From a virus, in IMG/VR virus record IMGVR_UViG_3300009149_000284, positions 1 to 23,756 of that record: 23,756 bases of DNA. One strand, given 5' to 3'. A program made the position numbers and the translations under genes. Shown here one piece after another: positions 431 through 13,177 of this stretch. The first letter of the stretch is position 1; every line of letters begins with the position of its first letter. The notes under the pieces were generated by a model. That model made no database searches and had not been told where the DNA came from. It saw only the letters and a list, made by a program, of their open reading frames with translations.

Positions 431-2254
431 TTAATAATTGCCTCCGCCTCGGCTCTGGACGAATATTTGCTTAACTATTGCCGCCGTTATCCTTGCGAGC
501 CCTGTAGGATTATTGCCCGTTATTCCCGGATAAATCTCTACCATATGCCATGCACCACGGGATACCTTCCCTCCGGTTAGCGATAGATAAGGCACTATAT
601 CAATATCATTTCCAGTAAGCTCCGTTATTGGTATAGTTGAGCCATCTACCTTTATCACTACTGTAGTCGGCAAATAACCAAACTCATATATACCATAATC
701 TATATCATGAACGTGATCTGGTAATTCAGTTTCATGTTGATGGGTAAAATTGTTTAAGTTTATCGTATGGATGTGTCCTCTTAATTTATGATTATGAGTT
801 ATATCAGATATATCGTGATTATGATTTTCAAAGTCGCTCGCTTCTTCTGGTGTTGACGCTTTTTCTCTATATGCAGTTGCACTTAATCCAGTATATGAGC
901 TTCCTGTAGTTGCGACAGGATCTACTGAAACATCCCAACTCCAAACATTTTCAGTCGACGTAACTCCAGTTAATCTCGAATCACTTGTAACGGTATCAGC
1001 TCCGCCGCCTTTAGTAGCTTGTTCGTATGCCCTAAAATTACTTGTCTCATATGTCAGCAAACACTTGTTTACAGCCACACATTCCGAGGGTACATAAAAC
1101 TTTATCGTAGCCGGATGCGTGTTATCGCAGTTATCCTGATAATCATTACTGTCAATATTAGTTGCTCCTTGTGCGTACACATCATTTATGTGCTGCCGAT
1201 TTTGCAAACTGGTTGTAGTATCAGCAGAATCCAATATTTTATTGCTTATTTGCACCATTATATCGCCGGGATTGCCAGTCAGATCGGATTTGCTTACCGA
1301 AACAATTCTGGCCGTGAAGCTTACAATATCAATATCATATACTGCAACCATAATCCCGGGATCACGGAAGCGGTCAAGGGAATCTCCTGAGATGGAATAA
1401 ATATCTGCACCGTTTACATTATACGATTTGCGAGGGATTTTTATTGTCTCTAAGTATGCTTCTGCTTTTGCTTTTAAAGTTGCAGCATTTTCCTCTGTTT
1501 TATCAATAAACGGTGCAGAAATAACTCCATATATTCCAATTGTTGAAGCATCAATATAAGCCACACCTCCGTTTACATCTTTAATCGTGAGCTGGTTTAT
1601 ACCTTCGCCGTATCCAAGAGGATATAGCCGTGTGACAATGTAACTCGGGTCATTATCTTCTGATATATCAATGAGATTCTTTTTGCTCATTATTCTGGCC
1701 GTAGCTGTCATAGATGGTTGTATTAGATTCAATATCCATGGATATATCTCAGTATTCCAAGTCCATTGATATTCGCTTGAATAGGCTTTTGGCAAACTAA
1801 ATAAGGCACTTAACAGATTTTCATTCTCCCATTTGTAATCGTAAATTTCAGCAAAATCTACAGTGCCAACTTGCCAACGCGCTATTGATTGATATCCCAA
1901 AATAGTTTCGATATTTTCAGCAGGTATTAATCCTGTCGTTTGGTTATACTGAAACATAATATCATCCAATAATGTTGATAGTACATGTTCGCATTGATAT
2001 GTAATTATTTTACTATCAGCGTTTTTATTGAATTTTGATGGAAGAATCCTGAACAAGTCAACTCGTTCTCTGCTATCGAAAATCTCAACATACCGAAATG
2101 CTAAACATTCCTCTTTTTTAGAATCGTCTGCCGGTAAACTAAATTGTGCTGTCCAGATTTCGTTCAAGCGTTTATCATATCTTATTCCGAAAGCATTTTG
2201 TAAAACAGCGACAGGATTTGATGTACTTATGCTATAATCATAAACTTTTATCAA
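431..2254 (-). CDS. Tal-like tail-tip protein (prophage tail endopeptidase family) with a His-rich HxH segment
   Basis: A 607-residue protein from the TTG at 2254, which follows GAAGGAGGG at good spacing. The N-terminal ~350 residues resemble the gp27-like baseplate-hub domain of Siphoviridae Tal / prophage-tail proteins: an opening beta strand (IKVYDYSIS), a duplicated beta-rich body, IIVSF-type strands around RIVSVSKSDLTG and a QISNKILD segment. Residues ~478-516 carry five HxH motifs (HNH, HNH, HIH, HQH, HVH), as in metal-binding tail needles and receptor-binding tips. The C-terminus is beta-rich and Gly-ended. Tal normally follows Dit directly; here it is the last tail gene, more than 5 kb from Dit and behind a terminator. 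The reading frame is also open 29 codons further upstream (see 2255-2341). No peptidase active site could be identified by eye. Role: tail-tip hub and host contact. Confidence 0.75.
   Translation of the reverse strand: MIKVYDYSISTSNPVAVLQNAFGIRYDKRLNEIWTAQFSLPADDSKKEECLAFRYVEIFDSRERVDLFRILPSKFNKNADSKIITYQCEHVLSTLLDDIMFQYNQTTGLIPAENIETILGYQSIARWQVGTVDFAEIYDYKWENENLLSALFSLPKAYSSEYQWTWNTEIYPWILNLIQPSMTATARIMSKKNLIDISEDNDPSYIVTRLYPLGYGEGINQLTIKDVNGGVAYIDASTIGIYGVISAPFIDKTEENAATLKAKAEAYLETIKIPRKSYNVNGADIYSISGDSLDRFRDPGIMVAVYDIDIVSFTARIVSVSKSDLTGNPGDIMVQISNKILDSADTTTSLQNRQHINDVYAQGATNIDSNDYQDNCDNTHPATIKFYVPSECVAVNKCLLTYETSNFRAYEQATKGGGADTVTSDSRLTGVTSTENVWSWDVSVDPVATTGSSYTGLSATAYREKASTPEEASDFENHNHDISDITHNHKLRGHIHTINLNNFTHQHETELPDHVHDIDYGIYEFGYLPTTVVIKVDGSTIPITELTGNDIDIVPYLSLTGGKVSRGAWHMVEIYPGITGNNPTGLARITAAIVKQIFVQSRGGGNY
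707..823 (-). other. Histidine-rich HxH metal-binding segment in the Tal-like protein
   Basis: The 39 codons here encode five HxH motifs spaced 5 to 10 residues apart. Repeated HxH pairs are known from trimeric phage tips (for example T4 gp12-type and contractile-needle tips), where three chains coordinate iron or zinc along the fibre axis. The motifs are read directly from the sequence; metal binding is inference. Confidence 0.6.
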
Positions 2255-2341
2255 GCTTTTCCCTCCTTCAACTCTGGAAGAGCCACAAAATAATAATAAT
2301 ATAATAGGTATAATCAATAATAATTTTTTAATAAAAATCAA
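2255..2341 (-). other. In-frame hydrophobic leader upstream of the Tal-like gene
   Basis: Twenty-nine codons in frame with the tail gene, from a TTG at 2341, encode a Lys-Lys pair followed by a very hydrophobic run (LLLIIPIILLLF) and then CGSSRVEGGKS. It resembles a signal peptide or lipoprotein leader, though LLFC is a poor lipobox. An AGGAGG lies only one base from the TTG, too close for normal initiation, so whether the leader is translated is doubtful. The hydrophobic character could partly reflect A+T-rich codons (TTA, ATT, ATA). Confidence 0.35.
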
Positions 2342-2357
2342 TCCTCCTTAAAAATGC

Positions 2358-2389
2358 AAAACAAAAGACCCGCTTTTTAGCAGGCCTTT
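2358..2389 (-). terminator. Rho-independent terminator between the aspartyl protease and Tal-like genes
   Basis: On the minus strand AAAGGCCTGCT (2389-2379), an AAAA loop and AGCGGGTCTTT (2374-2364) form an 11-pair stem that includes two G-U pairs, followed by TGTTTT. It starts 17 bases after the stop of the protease gene. With the promoter at 3296-3324 it brackets the two-gene accessory unit. Confidence 0.65.
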
Positions 2390-2405: not shown

Positions 2406-2966
2406 TTACGCCAATGCTCCGCAACATTTTTTATATTTTTTACCACTTCCACAAGTGCAGGGGTCATTTCTTCCAACTTTGTCACTATGGGCTTGTTTGT
2501 TCTGCGGCATATTAACAAAACTTATTTCTCTCGTGGAAGGAAATCTATATGTAAACACTGTTTTGCCTTGGAAATTAGATACTGCAAAATCTCCCCGTCC
2601 AATAACATCCATTCCAACTAATAAATCCGCACCGTTAACAACAGCTTCTGTAACCCTGAGCCCATTTATTACTACCCTATTTGGTAGCAATAAATCAATA
2701 ATGTAAACGTTGGTTTGTTTTACTCCACCAGCATTGTGTACATTAGCAACACCAACAGGAACCAAGCCACATTCATTTGCAACTCTTTCTGTAATTGCAG
2801 TGCATGTGGCTCTTGTGTCCCATATGGCATTATATTTTGTTTTGGGTGGTTCAGTTAACGGTTTTCCTGCAAGTCTTGTTGTTATTGGATCTGCTACATG
2901 AACCTCGTTGTTTAATACATTTGAGAGTCCATTATAAGTTGTTGTAAAAGAAAGAATACGATCCAA
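2406..2966 (-). CDS. Retroviral-type aspartyl protease fold with C-terminal SEC-C zinc motif; active site DTR
   Basis: A 186-residue protein starting at a TTG (2966) behind CGGAGG. Residues ~45-145 match the bacterial retropepsin-like fold: the first strand and active-site loop [13 protein letters not shown] (47-59), a flap-like VHNAGG region, strand [14 protein letters not shown], and the second conserved block [19 protein letters not shown] (112-130). Residues 165-183 are a SEC-C motif, with cysteines 170, 172, 181 and 182 in [19 protein letters not shown]. The expected active-site triplet is Asp-Thr-Gly; here codon 52 is AGA (Arg), one transition from GGA. Asp50 is kept. A bulky Arg in the fireman's-grip loop would probably impair dimeric catalysis, so the protein may be inactive or altered. 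It pairs with the small gene just upstream and is followed by a terminator. It is not a virion protein by homology; it reads as accessory cargo. Confidence 0.8.
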
Positions 2967-2986
2967 ATATTTGACCTCCGTATATT

Positions 2987-3247
2987 TCAGTTAATAAAAT
3001 GAACCCTTGAGTGAAACGTCTGCATGTAACATTCATCGTTTGCTTCGCATTTCTGTATAAGAAAAGTTCCCAGTGGATCTGTTTTTTGGGTTTTAATGAT
3101 AGCTGTGTCAAAACTATCATAAACCCCCAAAACCTGATTATTCTTAATAGCTAGGTATTTCCCTTCGTATTTTTTCACAAGATCTTCGCGATTGGTCATA
3201 AAAAAGTCAAATTCATCCTTAAGTATAACTTTTGCATCATTGTTCAT
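2987..3247 (-). CDS. DUF5678-like small protein, partner of the aspartyl protease
   Basis: An 86-residue protein from the ATG at 3247 (AGAGGAGGAG upstream); an in-frame ATG at 3256 is also possible. Longer versions would begin upstream of the promoter at 3296-3324 and are unlikely. The core [20 protein letters not shown], followed by a helix and [10 protein letters not shown] and ending in QTFHSRVHF, is the signature of small bacterial proteins of the DUF5678 type. From memory these often sit beside retropepsin-like aspartyl protease genes. Function is unknown; it may be a regulator, chaperone or substrate of the protease. Twenty bases separate it from the protease gene, so they are co-transcribed. 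I see no membrane segment or signal peptide. Confidence 0.75.
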
Positions 3248-3295
3248 ATACAACATCTCCTCCTCTAATCCATTAATATGAATCAAAGTATTATA

Positions 3296-3324
3296 ATTAT
3301 ACAGTATATCGACTAAAATAACAA
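3296..3324 (-). promoter_or_regulatory. Promoter of the DUF5678-like / aspartyl protease unit
   Basis: Minus strand: -35 TTGTTA (3324-3319, four of six consensus), a 17-base spacer, and -10 TATAAT (3301-3296, perfect). Transcription would start near 3289, about 40 bases before the ATG at 3247. Good spacing and position immediately ahead of a gene pair that ends in a terminator make it convincing for a vegetative sigma factor. Confidence 0.65.
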
Positions 3325-3401
3325 TAAGATTTATATACAATTATATTTACGATTGTATGTGCAGCTTTATCATCTGATACGCATTATAGTCCTTACGTGA
3401 A

Positions 3402-4310
3402 TTACTTAGTTAACACAATATGAGAGTTTTTTATGCCTAATTCACTCACTTTATACTTAGCCAAAAAATACTCATCAATACTCATATTCAATAATATTTT
3501 TAGGTCTATTTCGCTTGGCATATTAGGATTGTCTTCTAATATTTTAAAATCTGAGTTTTTAATAAAGTTTAAATAGTCTTTGTGCCTTAATCTATTTTGG
3601 TAATGTAAGCTCGGGTTGAATTTCCTCCATTCGTTTTTTGAATATTTTAAAAAATTATACTTTGTTATTGAACGGTCAAAATATGCCCAGTGATCCTGAT
3701 AATCAATTATTACTGACATAATACCATTAGGTTTTAGTACACGATAACATTCTTTTAAAATATTCGTCATTATATTCTCTGGAATATGCTCAAATGTAAC
3801 ATTAGATACAATAAAATCAATTGAATCATCTTGAAAATTTGTTTTTTGAGCATCTTGTGGAGCCTCATACTCTAAATTGAAATTGTTTTTTAATATATAA
3901 TCAATATTTGCCTTATTTATAGGAGGTAAGCCATGCGGAACACTAAAATTAAATACCTCTCTGTTTAATTTTATAAGTTCTAATGTATTGCTAATTAATT
4001 CAGGAAATATAAGTCTTCTTACGTCTATGCAGTGCAAGCGTTTCATACCTTTGCTGCTGCAACATAATGGTGCCATTAAATCCCAACCAGCACCAAATTC
4101 GTAATATATAGAATCCTTAATCTTCGTCTGCGAATATTTTTCATATGCGTTTAAATGTTTTTGCACTTTATCTCTATAATGATTTTCAAATGCTTCAAAC
4201 TTAATTGGTAGTGTTTTTGTAATATACTTCTGAAAATAATAATTTAAATAAACGCCACTGTTGAGTTTTGAAAAAACTTTTTGTAATAAACACTTGTAAT
4301 AAAATTTCAT
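3402..4310 (-). CDS. Class I SAM-dependent methyltransferase (Methyltransf_11-like), accessory gene
   Basis: A 302-residue protein; the second ATG (4310) is chosen because AAGGGAG lies nine bases upstream, while the first (4316) leaves only three. It has the Rossmann methyltransferase motifs: motif I YYEFGAGWDL (~69-78), an acidic CIDVRR strand end (~94-99), a DDSIDFIVSNVTFEHIPE block (motif IV region, ~161-178) and YRVLKPNGIMSVIID (~189-203). The N-terminal ~60 residues are basic and helical. The substrate cannot be told; such enzymes near tail-spike genes often modify surface polysaccharide or act on small molecules. The gene is visibly richer in A+T than the structural genes and stands between tail genes where no phage structural gene is expected, so horizontal acquisition (a moron) is likely. 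Confidence 0.8.
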   Translation of the reverse strand: MKFYYKCLLQKVFSKLNSGVYLNYYFQKYITKTLPIKFEAFENHYRDKVQKHLNAYEKYSQTKIKDSIYYEFGAGWDLMAPLCCSSKGMKRLHCIDVRRLIFPELISNTLELIKLNREVFNFSVPHGLPPINKANIDYILKNNFNLEYEAPQDAQKTNFQDDSIDFIVSNVTFEHIPENIMTNILKECYRVLKPNGIMSVIIDYQDHWAYFDRSITKYNFLKYSKNEWRKFNPSLHYQNRLRHKDYLNFIKNSDFKILEDNPNMPSEIDLKILLNMSIDEYFLAKYKVSELGIKNSHIVLTK

Positions 4311-4348
4311 ATACATATACTCCCTTAATTTAATTTAATATATTTAAT

Positions 4349-4596: not shown

Positions 4597-6516
4597 TTAA
4601 ACCGTTGTTCCTGCCCCATCTACCCAAACAGGAGTTGTCGTGTGAGGCGTTTTGCACCATATCGGTTTGTTTAATGTTGTATCAAAATACTGCATTCCTG
4701 CGACTTGCCATGTTGGTCTGCTTGCTGTATCACCTGCTAATATAAGCGGAACGTAATAATTTGAACCGTTTGAAAGAGTAGTTGCCGTTTGTGCATATCT
4801 AGTCCATCCTAACACATTTCTTTCCAACACATTAGCGTTAAGGTAAAAAGCATTTAATACACCTCCGACACTTCCACCAAAGTTTGTGCCATCTGAACCA
4901 AGGGTTGGAGTTTTTAATCCTAGTATAATATTATTCATAGTATATATAGGTGTTTCCACATACCAGTCCCAGTATGAACCCATAAATTTAATTAATGGTA
5001 ACATACCCCGTATAGTTGGATTTTCATCTGGAGAAACATATACACGATTAATATTTGCTCCCATTTGAGCCGCCGCCGAATATTTGAAACGGCTTGCAGT
5101 ATTAACGGTTAATCTTAATTTTTCAATTTCTAAATCAAAATACGTGCCACCGTTCCATAAATAACCCTTATTAGTTGCTCCCATTTCAACTGTCATTTGT
5201 TTTATCTTTAAACTTGAACCATTACCGAAAATAACTTCTCCTGTATCAAGATTGCTTTGAATGAGATATGTATTATCTATGGTCACATTACTATTATCAA
5301 GCTTTATAAATCTATCGCAATCAGGGCTTTCACCACCTATTGACGTACAATGAACGTTAGCATAATAAAAGTGAAACATAGTACCTTTACAAAAATCTCC
5401 GTAAACATTTATTAAAGTGGAGTATATACCATTAATATGATACGCAATTTTGTCAGTAGATGCGTAACAATTTTCTAATGTTAAACTTGTACATGATGCA
5501 TTGCTATAAAATCCATAATCACCGTGAAATGTACAATTTTTAAACGACCACGCAAAACCAGTCCCAATATAGAGCGCATATCTGTCGTGCGTGTCTATTG
5601 TTGCATAATCTTTCAAAACCGAAAATGATGTATATTCACAAATGATTCTCGAACCGATTTTTCCATATACTGCATAGGTTATTGCCGCTGTGCTGTCATT
5701 TTTTATTTTTATATTTTCAAAAATTACACCTGTCCAACCATCGTTTATATTTAATGTCGAACCCTTAATTAAAATACAAGTAGCATCTAATGAATAAAGA
5801 GTATCCGTCCCTATCTTTTTAATAGTCGTCCCTGTATTAGCTTCACCGCTTATTATAATAGTAGGAAAGTCATATCCACTTAATTCAGTCGTTACTGTTT
5901 TTATAATTAATGGTTTAGTTGTTTTATATATCCCCAAAGGATGATATATTTTTCCTCCTCCTTTATTATAAACATAATCTAAAATTGCTTGTAGTGCTAA
6001 AGTATCATCAGTAATTCCATCACCTACAGCAGCAATTAATCCATGTCCAAGATATTTTACATTGATTAATAGAGTCGCATAATCTGCCAAATGCGTATTA
6101 TGTTTTGTTTCCCATTTGTCCAATCTGCCATTTAATCCGGTATTTTCCCCTTCGGGACCAAAATCTTCATCCTCAATATCGACTAATGCAGCTGTAACAA
6201 GTGCATCATGTTCTGAGCCGGTAAAGCTAAGATTGTTTACTTGCTGTTGGAGGCTATCAACAGCTCCTTTTACTTCCGTTTCACCGTTCACTTCGCCTGA
6301 ATAGGTCACATTTTGAGCTGCATGCTTGTCTGCAGTACCGGCAACATGCGCTATTACCTGATTATTTATCGCAATAGCATTATCTTTCCATTTTGGCCAT
6401 GCATCTCTTAATTTTGTAATTCCAAGATAATCTTGTAAAGTAGCCATATTATCACTCCCTGTATTTATTGTAGCCAACAAAACAACAACTAAAAGTAAGC
6501 ACATATATTTTTTCAT
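4597..6516 (-). CDS. Tail spike with pectate-lyase-type beta-helix; hydrophobic N-terminal leader in frame
   Basis: The full frame is 639 residues from ATG 6516, behind AGGGGGATAAG. A second ATG at 6447 (residue 24, MATLQDYLG) has its own GGGAG seven bases upstream and is the more likely start of the virion form (616 residues). Residues 1-20 are Lys-Lys plus a hydrophobic core (CLLLVVVLLATI), like a signal peptide. Residues ~24-100 look like a phage tail adaptor (HAAQNVTYSG, then a VKGAVDSLQQQV coil). GDGITDDTLALQ (165-176) and GGGKIYHPLGIY (186-197) are the classic opening of Pectate_lyase_3 beta-helices; the body to ~530 is repetitive beta sequence. The C-terminus ends in a GDTASRPTW...GMQYFDTTLNKPIW motif common in tail fibres. 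Likely role: binding and perhaps cleaving a surface polysaccharide. Catalytic residues cannot be assigned by eye. A consensus promoter lies just upstream, unusual for a gene inside a late operon. Confidence 0.8.
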   Translation of the reverse strand: MKKYMCLLLVVVLLATINTGSDNMATLQDYLGITKLRDAWPKWKDNAIAINNQVIAHVAGTADKHAAQNVTYSGEVNGETEVKGAVDSLQQQVNNLSFTGSEHDALVTAALVDIEDEDFGPEGENTGLNGRLDKWETKHNTHLADYATLLINVKYLGHGLIAAVGDGITDDTLALQAILDYVYNKGGGKIYHPLGIYKTTKPLIIKTVTTELSGYDFPTIIISGEANTGTTIKKIGTDTLYSLDATCILIKGSTLNINDGWTGVIFENIKIKNDSTAAITYAVYGKIGSRIICEYTSFSVLKDYATIDTHDRYALYIGTGFAWSFKNCTFHGDYGFYSNASCTSLTLENCYASTDKIAYHINGIYSTLINVYGDFCKGTMFHFYYANVHCTSIGGESPDCDRFIKLDNSNVTIDNTYLIQSNLDTGEVIFGNGSSLKIKQMTVEMGATNKGYLWNGGTYFDLEIEKLRLTVNTASRFKYSAAAQMGANINRVYVSPDENPTIRGMLPLIKFMGSYWDWYVETPIYTMNNIILGLKTPTLGSDGTNFGGSVGGVLNAFYLNANVLERNVLGWTRYAQTATTLSNGSNYYVPLILAGDTASRPTWQVAGMQYFDTTLNKPIWCKTPHTTTPVWVDGAGTTV

Positions 6517-6556
6517 CTTATCCCCCTATAAATAAATTTTATATATTATAGGAATA

Positions 6557-6584
6557 ATTATATGTTTTTATATATTATTGTCAA
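6557..6584 (-). promoter_or_regulatory. Consensus vegetative promoter ahead of the tail-spike gene
   Basis: Minus strand TTGACA (6584-6579), a 16-base spacer and TATAAT (6562-6557): both hexamers match the consensus at all six positions. It sits in the short gap after the stop codon of the preceding gene (6591) and about 40 bases before ATG 6516. The surrounding DNA is very A+T-rich, but a perfect TTGACA at this spacing is unlikely to be accidental. Confidence 0.75.
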
Positions 6585-6590
6585 CTATTA

Positions 6591-7154
6591 TTATATAAAT
6601 TGTGGACGAAAATCAAATTTAAAGTCAACTTTCCCCCCTGCTTTTGCATATGTTATTACATTGTTGCCTGGAATTAGTTTTAGAAAATCTGCCACATCAC
6701 CCGTGACTTTATCTAATTTATTTACCGCGCCATTTTTCACGGTTGCATTGATATTGTTAATTATTATCGTCTGTTCAGTACAATTCTCTGTGTATATCAA
6801 GGTTTTACCGTTCATTGAAATTGAAAAGAACGTAAACGTACCTGTTACAATTATGTCAAACTGTGCGCCTTCTTCTGCGCCTAAACCCAATTCGGCGGTG
6901 CCATTATATATCATCGTTATTGATGCTGCATTTATTTCCTTTTTGGCAGACACTTTAACTGTCATAGTTAATATTTTATTTATACTTTTGCGGACTACAG
7001 GGTTAATTTTAGCAACAGATGTTAGATACTTGCCTATATCATGTAAAATAGACGTACCGGCTTTAACGCCGGTAGCCAATATCTTGCCTGTGCTTTTACC
7101 CATTATCGAATTAACTTTTATTTCTGTTGTCAATGTCAAATCTGTATTAGCCAT
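6591..7154 (-). CDS. Tail protein with four 18-residue repeats and a Dit-type C-terminal domain
   Basis: A 187-residue protein with a good AAGGCGG site. Residues 6-67 hold four units of an 18-residue repeat built round L[TA]xxxxK (LTLTTEIK, KILATGVK, KYLTSVAK, KILTMTVK). Residues ~83-187 look like the C-terminal galectin-like domain of distal tail proteins: NGTAELG, then DIIVTGTFTFFSISMNGKTL, TIIINNINATVKNGAVNKL, a DVADFLKLIPGNNVITY turn and a terminal KVDFKFDFRPQFI strand. The gene called Dit (7702-8190) is only 162 residues and lacks this domain, so the two may together replace one full-length Dit. Two small genes lie between them. The role is inferred as baseplate or tail-tip assembly; a free-standing adaptor for the spike is an alternative. 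Confidence 0.65.
   Translation of the reverse strand: MANTDLTLTTEIKVNSIMGKSTGKILATGVKAGTSILHDIGKYLTSVAKINPVVRKSINKILTMTVKVSAKKEINAASITMIYNGTAELGLGAEEGAQFDIIVTGTFTFFSISMNGKTLIYTENCTEQTIIINNINATVKNGAVNKLDKVTGDVADFLKLIPGNNVITYAKAGGKVDFKFDFRPQFI
6954..7139 (-). repeat. Four 18-residue protein repeats
   Basis: At residues 6, 24, 42 and 60 of the encoded protein an eight-residue core recurs: LTLTTEIK, KILATGVK, KYLTSVAK, KILTMTVK. The spacing is exactly 18 residues (54 bases). The period suggests a beta-solenoid or short fibrous stalk rather than random similarity. DNA identity between units is low, so the repeat is old or under selection at the protein level. Confidence 0.65.
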
Positions 7155-7166
7155 GATACACCGCCT

Positions 7167-7559
7167 TTATCTTGTAAAGACATTATTTATTGTAAATGTT
7201 ATTGTGTCTCCAACGCTTACGTTGATATCTGAGAATGTACCTCTCATTGATAATGTCCCATTTGTCAAAGCAGAAAATAATCCTACTTCCTTGATAGTTT
7301 TATCGGAACCTGCACAGGTAATCAATCCTACTACTCTATATGTATCATTTGTTACGCCTCCGCCTGATGTTTGTTGTGAAACGGTGCCGACAGTTCTTGC
7401 TTCTGCTCCTTCACTTTCTAACACAGTATCTAAAGGATCTGCTGCTGCTGCTGCTAATACTCCCCAACCTATCCAATGCGGCGTTATTACGCTTATACTT
7501 GCCAATAAGTCTGTTACTTTTGCTAATCCTACATTAGTCCAGACAGCTAAATCAGCCAT
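7167..7559 (-). CDS. Tail-collar / fibre-type protein
   Basis: A 130-residue protein. The ATG at 7559 is preferred to the one at 7568, because the AGGAGG lies nine bases before it and overlaps the other. The order of motifs (WIGWGV, an AAAADPLDTVLESEGAEAR stretch, TNDTYRVVGLITC, then TIKEVGLFSALTNGTLSMRG and a final VGDTITFTINNVF) matches the N-terminal domain of phage tail-collar and fibre proteins (DUF3751-like). There an L-x-x-E...R segment precedes an I-x-E-x-G-L-F turn. Here the domain stands alone, without a long fibre. It lies between Dit and the Dit-C-like gene, and probably contributes to the tail tip. Confidence 0.6.
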   Translation of the reverse strand: MADLAVWTNVGLAKVTDLLASISVITPHWIGWGVLAAAAADPLDTVLESEGAEARTVGTVSQQTSGGGVTNDTYRVVGLITCAGSDKTIKEVGLFSALTNGTLSMRGTFSDINVSVGDTITFTINNVFTR

Positions 7560-7689
7560 TATTTTCATCCTCCTTTGATATTGTTATTTCGGCATTTTCG
7601 CAAATTATACCCAAATCTTCAATCGTTCCATCTTTTCTTGTAACTATCGCAGAAATTGTCACTTGCGGTCTTTTTATCATTGTTTCCAT
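7552..7689 (-). CDS. Small uncharacterised protein between Dit and the collar protein
   Basis: A 45-residue ORF with an AGGAGG eight bases ahead of its ATG and an eight-base overlap with the next gene. The protein begins METMIKRPQVTISAIVTRKD and continues with a GTIEDLGIICENAEITISKED segment: two beta strands around a turn. It has no membrane segment. The strong ribosome site and tight packing support it as a real gene. No family recognised. Confidence 0.6.
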   Translation of the reverse strand: METMIKRPQVTISAIVTRKDGTIEDLGIICENAEITISKEDENNG

Positions 7690-7701
7690 CAAAAAAACCT
7701 C

Positions 7702-8190
7702 CTATAATGAAATAATATAATCGTCACCTGAGTCTAATAAAATGTCCGAATCAAGAGGAATACCATCGTCCAGATAAATATCTTCACCGCTCGTAACGAC
7801 ATATAGGGCGTGCGGTTGACATTCAAATTTTACGATAGCTTTTCCGAGTCGGAAAAACGTTTCGAGTCCGACGGGATCATAGATTTTCGCCAAGTAGTAT
7901 TTATCTGGTTCGTCCGAGAATATGAGTTCTTTATAGCTTGTTTGACTAAGCCATGCAGCTATATCACGCGCCCGTAATCGGAGATCGTTAAATGTGGTTC
8001 CGACGTATTTTATGGACACAGGTATGATTCTATTGTCATAAGTATTGTCTCCAAAATCATAAACACCATGCCTGCCAGGTATCGTTAATTCACGTTTTCT
8101 CAAAGTCGGTAGTATGGGACGATCAACACTTTTGGCAATGATCTGAAAATCGCCATAACTATCTAATGCATTATATTCAAGAGTGATCAT
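7702..8190 (-). CDS. Distal tail protein (Dit), N-terminal domain form
   Basis: A 162-residue protein following the tape measure with a four-base overlap, the standard place for Dit. It has Dit N-terminal-domain features: RPILPTLRKRELTIPGRHGVYDFG, IIPVSIKYVGTTFNDLRLRARDIAAWL, and YYLAKIYDPVG before a KFECQPHALY strand. Dit forms the hexameric hub joining tail tube to tail tip. Full-length relatives continue with a C-terminal domain to about 230-290 residues. This one stops after an acidic repeat-like tail (DGIPLDSDILLDSGDD), and a similar C-terminal domain appears in the gene at 6591-7154. Confidence 0.8.
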   Translation of the reverse strand: MITLEYNALDSYGDFQIIAKSVDRPILPTLRKRELTIPGRHGVYDFGDNTYDNRIIPVSIKYVGTTFNDLRLRARDIAAWLSQTSYKELIFSDEPDKYYLAKIYDPVGLETFFRLGKAIVKFECQPHALYVVTSGEDIYLDDGIPLDSDILLDSGDDYIISL

Positions 8191-12283: not shown

Positions 12284-13177
12284 TTATAATGCAATTGTTG
12301 TGAAATTGCTTACGCTATTCGCAGCCAATGCATTGCCTGAAAGGTCTTTTACATTTGATGTACAAATTGCGATGTACTCTGTTAAATTGTCCAAATCTAC
12401 TGTCGGATTAAGCGTGACAACTGTATCACTTGTGCCGATACTTAACGCTCCTGCGACCGGCGTTCCATCAGCTTTCATCAGGAAGAAGTTTGCTGCATTT
12501 ACAAGTGCGGACTGAATAGCTTTATCGAATGTCCAGACAACATTTACATCGATCGCTACATCAGCGGTTGTATCTACAGGCACAACTCCAACTGTAGGCG
12601 GTGTCACATCAGGCGAAATATCTCCGGTTGTAAACCAATCTGTTCCAGTTGCGGCAACCCATGTTGCCGAATCTTCGTCAGCTACACGTTTTCTTCTTCC
12701 ATCAGATAATCTTTGTATGCCAATGCCGATGAATTTATCCACCTGAGGCATTGATGCACCTTTTTGTGTTTCGTAAGTTTCATCAGGTTCACTGAATTTT
12801 ACCTTTAAAACTTTGCAGTATTTGTACTTCTTGTTTCTCTTTTTGCCTTTCCACATTACGCAGAAATAAGGTTTTTCATCATTCGGAGATGGAGACCTTA
12901 TGCCTGCGGCCATTGTCTGACCAAGCAACATGGCTTTTTCATCTTCTGTTAAATTAGTGACATCTATATCTATTGTGATATCGCCATCCTCCGAATAAAT
13001 ATCTACTGTCATGTCATCCGCATATTGTTTTTCACTTGCTTTTTCTTCCGACACGCCTACCATCATGAGTTTTTTTGTGAATTCATATGGCGTATCATAA
13101 GTAGTGGCTCCTCCTGCCACATCCGATAAAATTTCTGCTACTGTCAATTGCTCAACACCTGTTCTGCTATTTGCCAT
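12284..13177 (-). CDS. Major tail tube protein (phi13-like) with C-terminal Ig-like domain
   Basis: A 297-residue protein. Residues ~1-185 resemble the phi13-type major tail protein: ANSRTGVEQLTVAEI, YEFTKKLMMVGVSEEKASEK, YSEDGDITIDIDVTNLTEDE, KPYFCVMWKGKKRNKKYKYC. Residues ~189-297 form an Ig-like (Big_5/SbsA type) domain: PPTVGVVPVDTT, VAIDVNVVWTFDKAI, VVTLNPTVDLDNLTEYIAIC, KDLSGNALAANSVSNFTT. The first part forms the tube rings; the Ig-like part would project outwards from the tail, as in other phages with decorated tails, and may bind carbohydrate on the cell surface. A hairpin follows directly after the stop. Confidence 0.85.
   Translation of the reverse strand: MANSRTGVEQLTVAEILSDVAGGATTYDTPYEFTKKLMMVGVSEEKASEKQYADDMTVDIYSEDGDITIDIDVTNLTEDEKAMLLGQTMAAGIRSPSPNDEKPYFCVMWKGKKRNKKYKYCKVLKVKFSEPDETYETQKGASMPQVDKFIGIGIQRLSDGRRKRVADEDSATWVAATGTDWFTTGDISPDVTPPTVGVVPVDTTADVAIDVNVVWTFDKAIQSALVNAANFFLMKADGTPVAGALSIGTSDTVVTLNPTVDLDNLTEYIAICTSNVKDLSGNALAANSVSNFTTIAL

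Follow-up and report, generated by a model that had tools for sequence, protein, structure and literature searches.

Several described phage systems hold parts of the arrangement considered here. The tail-spike gene of the BTP1 prophage of Salmonella D23580 has secondary promoters of its own (PMC7067206), and the seroconverting prophage Kapi1 carries glycan genes near its spike (PMC8787464). Ltp of the Streptococcus thermophilus phage TP-J34, a moron, is a superinfection-exclusion surface lipoprotein expressed by the lysogen (PMC3952083), and PblA and PblB of the Streptococcus mitis phage SM1 are tail proteins which come to lie on the lysogen surface by way of holin/lysin permeabilisation (PMC2920869). 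In-frame dual starts are common among the endolysins of phages infecting Gram-positive hosts (PMC9430671). An export or signal leader on a tail spike was not found to be reported in the open-access literature searched.

The DNA analysed here (the window) is a linear fragment of 23,756 bases, IMG/VR virus record IMGVR_UViG_3300009149_000284. All of its clear genes lie on the minus strand and form a one-strand structural operon in the order terminase (TerL), portal, Clp-type protease, capsid, connectors, tail tube, tape measure, Dit, spike and Tal. The terminase is similar to those of Geobacillus phages, most of the closest Tal relatives among genomes belong to the Bacillota, and the host of the phage is probably a Gram-positive bacterium. 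It was also observed that the major tail protein (window 12284–13177) has a Big_5 bacterial Ig-like domain at its C-terminus. The N- and C-terminal domains of Dit are encoded by separate genes in the window (6591–8190), in L084 (5629–7305) and in L007 (8956–13272), with a Gp80-like fibre gene, along with others, between the two domain genes; Dit is a single gene in L002 and L085. The features of the region from the Dit C-terminal gene to Tal are as follows:

6591–7154, minus strand: gene for the Dit C-terminal domain, upstream neighbour of the spike
6448–6590, minus strand: 143-nt segment of 21.7% GC that separates the Dit C-terminal stop from the ancestral start of the spike (12 nt in relatives)
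6557–6584, minus strand: sigma-A/70-type promoter TTGACA-16-TATAAT, the only 12/12 site (0/3000 gap shuffles)
6521–6527, minus strand: ribosome site AGGGGGA of the upstream start, SD pairing −9.3 kcal/mol
6448–6516, minus strand: leader MKKYMCLLLVVVLLATINTGSDN from ATG 6516, signal-peptide-like or signal-anchor-like by translation and shuffles
6452–6460, minus strand: internal ribosome site AGGGAGTGA of ATG 6447, SD pairing −11.1 kcal/mol
4597–6447, minus strand: tail spike or fibre from the ancestral start, with a MATLQDYLG adaptor and a weakly pectate-lyase-like middle
3402–4316, minus strand: class I methyltransferase, cargo, 27% GC, promoter-like TAGACA-18-TAGAAT 30 nt upstream
2987–3246, minus strand: DUF5678-like small protein, cargo, from about 3246, promoter-like TTGTTA-17-TATAAT at 3324–3296
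2406–2966, minus strand: aspartyl protease-like protein with a SEC-C tail, cargo, 38% GC
2364–2389, minus strand: terminator-like hairpin with a U tract between cargo and Tal, the strongest in the scan
2255–2332, minus strand: in-frame Tal leader IKKLLLIIPIILLLFCGSSRVEGGKS from ATT 2332, no ATG, SD at 2349–2343
431–2254, minus strand: Tal (prophage endopeptidase tail protein), TTG start 2254, SD GAAGGAGGG

A sequence-only reading of this DNA had proposed a perfect TTGACA-16-TATAAT promoter inside the late operon and directly before the spike, and this was confirmed at 6584 to 6557 on the minus strand, within the 74-nt gap separating the Dit C-terminal gene from the spike. The −35 box lies at 6584–6579 and the −10 box at 6562–6557, matching the sigma-A/70 hexamers at 12 of 12 positions upstream of a gene, with a spacer of 16 nt where 16–18 nt was sought; transcription would be expected to start at about 6550. 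Past the Dit end at 6591, the minus strand reads TAATAG-TTGACA-16 nt-TATAAT, a leader RNA of about 34 nt, AGGGGGATAAG and ATG 6516, the promoter ending 40 nt before this start codon. The 12/12 match is unique in the window and never arose when the 74-nt gap was dinucleotide-shuffled 3000 times; shuffling of the whole window gave such a site, at any position, in 3% of cases. For the other genes of the window, the best site in the 150 nt ahead of the start matches 7–10 positions, compared with 12 for the spike. An 11-nt inverted repeat around the −35 box (window 6567–6599) was noted as a possible operator and then discounted, one of its arms being the conserved Dit gene end and the repeat probably being partly coincidence.

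The same reading had called for two in-frame starts with good ribosome sites. ATG 6516 and ATG 6447 do share one open frame, the long form consisting of MKKYMCLLLVVVLLATINTGSDN followed by MATLQDYLG, and an SD precedes each of them (−9.3 kcal/mol at 6516 and −11.1 kcal/mol at 6447). These energies, computed against a Bacillus-type anti-SD, are near the bottom of the range for the other genes of this phage, and mRNA structure across both starts is unremarkable (z −1.2). The leader was assessed with a crude rule for signal-peptide-like starts, namely two Lys or Arg in residues 2–7 and a mean hydropathy of 2.9 or more over 11 residues. With two Lys in residues 2–7 and an 11-residue hydropathy of 3.44, ATG 6516 is the only one of the 956 ATGs on both strands of the window to pass. 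Dinucleotide shuffles of the spike leader were left open in 13.5% of cases (8% for shuffles of the Tal leader) and were both open and signal-peptide-like in 0.06%. The claim that ATG 6516 adds a signal-peptide-like segment of two lysines and a hydrophobic stretch is thus upheld as a resemblance beyond chance. Among 588 ORFs of at least 250 aa in the fetched loci, two pass the same strict rule, both resembling ordinary secreted cell-wall-type proteins and neither being a tail gene.

It is less clear what kind of product such a leader would give. Four classical Bacillus signal peptides have hydropathies of 1.8–2.7, against 3.4 for the core of the spike leader, and an anchor is therefore indicated as much as a cleaved peptide. 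Cleavage candidates, judged by eye on the translation, are weak and comprise only LLA/T, which is too early, and TGS/D, with no AXA site, so that anchoring in the membrane and secretion are equally likely fates of the product. The spike protein itself matches PHROG tail and tail-spike families at 1e-3 to 1e-7, its match to the pectate-lyase-like family PF12708 scores 24.4 bits, below the curated cut-off of 27, and its AlphaFold model has a pLDDT of 31.

Comparison with relatives bore out ATG 6447 as a normal adaptor start. In four distinct phage contigs (L002, L083/L084, L085 and L086, the near-identical pair L083/L084 being counted as one) the adaptor begins at the homologous codon, 12 nt past the Dit stop, and the Dit end and adaptor are homologous to those of the window with no space for a leader. 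The adaptor start (M/L)ATL.DYLG is common to the window, L002, L084 and L085. Since the spike of all four relatives begins at the codon that corresponds to 6447, the alignments settle this codon as the ancestral spike start and identify the promoter and leader as an insert. The insert, the methyltransferase gene and the Tal leader have GC contents of 22–27%, against 37% for the window. The relatives came from adaptor and Dit-C alignments; scans of viral contigs with the spike or the Dit-C protein singly returned no relatives, and a scan of genome contigs with the adaptor returned no match. The insert is absent from all four distinct close relatives, no conservation being seen, and conservation therefore gives no sign of selection. 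A degenerate pattern of the leader had no match across viral contigs, and nothing useful was found for the insert in phage and plasmid DNA collections. When 391 genomes from the class to which L087 belongs were searched for the DNA of the insert, the only matches were AT-rich ones of 38–47 bits, scattered over many places, which were taken as noise. More distant junctions between Dit and the next gene are likewise tight, with the exception of L087. In L087 (2333–4265) an IS607-like element, made up of a serine recombinase with a MerR-type N-terminus and TnpB, lies at the Dit–fibre junction, which is uninterrupted in L004 and L005.

Downstream, the spike and Tal genes are neighbours 16 nt apart in L002, and in the window they are separated by extra genes, the distance of about 2.3 kb being mostly cargo. 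Promoter-like sites matching 10 of 12 positions, the site at 6584, the hairpin at 2389–2364 and the 27% GC of the methyltransferase gene agree with the promoter, terminator and composition of a moron, the SEC-C gene at 38% GC departing from the low-GC pattern. It should also be noted that at window 2406–3340 a DUF5678-like gene adjoins a retropepsin-like aspartyl protease with a SEC-C tail within a tail module. The methyltransferase match covers the SAM motif only and a link to any glycan is not claimed. The slot between spike and Tal in L084 (9394–10587) holds an EpsG-family exopolysaccharide polymerase (PF14897, 1.9e-45), which is likely to be lysogenic-conversion cargo in a slot shared with the methyltransferase of the window. 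The L084 record also carries a tyrosine integrase, which makes lysogeny plausible; none was found within the window fragment. The cargo-bearing phage of the window is probably temperate.

Tal was found to have a leader of its own. Comparison with L002 places the ancestral Tal start at TTG 2254, which has a strong ribosome site, and in front of it (window 2255–2349) lies a further in-frame segment of two lysines and hydrophobic residues, again preceded by a strong ribosome site. Such a leader arises in 0.035% of shuffles, and none was present on the other Tal proteins of the fetched set. No ATG, GTG or TTG is suitably spaced from its SD, TTG 2341 being one base off it, and the first workable codon is ATT 2332. 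This want of a usable ordinary start codon is consistent with decay, and a similar, ATG-less leader on Tal counts against a device made for the spike alone. Duplication of the two leaders is not claimed, their DNA aligning only loosely.

It is tentatively proposed, with a little less than even confidence, that a promoter and secretion leader were captured and fused to the spike, supplying it with a host-type promoter and a membrane-targeted long form. A short stretch of foreign AT-rich DNA, bearing the 5′ part of an exported-protein gene with its host-type promoter, ribosome site, start codon and leader, would have entered the Dit–spike junction and become joined in frame to the spike gene. 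During the late programme, translation of the long operon mRNA from the internal site at ATG 6447 would give the normal virion spike, and ribosomes could begin at 6447 on any transcript. The promoter at 6584–6557 would be read by the host polymerase, most likely in the prophage, to give a shorter mRNA from about 6550 that could extend over the spike and cargo as far as the terminator at 2364. On this mRNA the first start, ATG 6516, would yield a spike with a hydrophobic N-terminus that would be led to the membrane and be anchored there or secreted. At that place it could bind or cleave the polysaccharide of the cell surface, preventing re-adsorption and so hindering superinfection. We infer promoter activity, use of ATG 6516, export and the exclusion role from this arrangement, and it is plausible that a lysogen makes a membrane-targeted spike. 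The possibility raised in the sequence-only reading, of a polysaccharide-active spike exported by the lysogen beside an unmodified one on lytic particles, is supported in part. Were the lytic cycle to produce the long form as well, an N-terminal extension left uncleaved might interfere with assembly of the spike. Capture of the leader is favoured by the perfect promoter 40 nt before an SD and ATG, the signal-like leader, the low-GC insert, the cargo with its own signals and the relative with EpsG in the same slot and an integrase; it is opposed by the unconserved insert, the missing clear cleavage site, the ATG-less Tal leader and the lack of an integrase in the window.

The main rival, somewhat doubtful but a serious one, is that cargo came and went by insertion and deletion on either side of the spike, leaving in front of spike and Tal the 5′ remnants of earlier signal-peptide genes, such as those of superinfection-exclusion lipoproteins, the promoter perhaps still firing and the long forms being by-products or never made. 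The ATG-less Tal leader and the absent conservation favour such a relic, as does the presence of two such leaders which each adjoin acquired DNA. Native ribosome sites are moreover retained at 6447 and 2254, which suggests that the phage needs neither leader. However, both leaders are still open and in frame, as expected in only 13.5% and 8% of shuffles, and the spike leader retains its ATG, SD and perfect promoter with no apparent decay.

Captured leaders could also serve both tail-tip proteins, the spike from ATG 6516 and Tal from the weak ATT 2332, so that the lysogen would display or secrete them from the host-type promoter and virions would use the internal-start forms, giving superinfection exclusion by self-displayed tail tips; this extension appears unlikely. 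It is rather improbable that the promoter alone matters, serving separate transcription of the spike and downstream cargo in the lysogen or the lytic cell with the leader as 5′ untranslated DNA that only accidentally reads as protein. A unit from promoter 6584 to terminator 2364 and the documented promoters of a prophage tail-spike gene (PMC7067206) would suit this explanation, but the leader has an SD and an ATG to itself and resembles a signal peptide to a degree that only 0.06% of its shuffles reach, and promoter-like sites already precede the methyltransferase and DUF5678 genes. That a promoter-like site and a frame of two lysines and hydrophobic residues arose meaninglessly is very improbable, since even in a gap of 84% A+T, where 8% of shuffles reach 10/12, none of 3000 reached 12/12, the two leaders arise in 0.06% and 0.035% of shuffles, and promoter, SD and ATG stand in the correct order and spacing.

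If the long form is made, the prophage would be reusing a virion protein as a surface protein, one insertion having given both promoter and export, and receptor-binding spikes would have a route to become lysogenic-conversion factors. If the leaders are relics, the Dit–spike and spike–Tal junctions would still be cargo entry points in this phage group.

With regard to the known systems, BTP1 resembles the window in having a spike gene with its own promoters within a prophage late operon (PMC7067206); it is another phage type in another host, a signal-like leader has not been described for it, and its promoter activity was measured, whereas that of the window is predicted from sequence. Ltp, which comes from a phage of a Gram-positive host, is likewise a surface protein that bears a signal peptide and is expressed by the prophage (PMC3952083), but it is a small dedicated lipoprotein of the lysogeny module and not a virion protein with a putative leader. 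PblA and PblB are tail proteins displayed on the lysogen surface, reaching the wall by holin/lysin permeabilisation where the spike would use a Sec-type leader. Two-polypeptide endolysins also have two in-frame starts in a single phage gene, each with its ribosome site (PMC9430671); there the internal start gives a C-terminal subunit, whereas in the window it would give the complete virion protein, with only a leader added by the start upstream of it. Kapi1-type prophages share glycan-modifying cargo, or candidates for it, beside the spike, as with EpsG in the spike–Tal slot of L084, and differ in that no glycan role is claimed for the methyltransferase of the window. Spike promoters, lysogen surface proteins and dual starts are thus already known as parts, and it is their combination that appears to be new.
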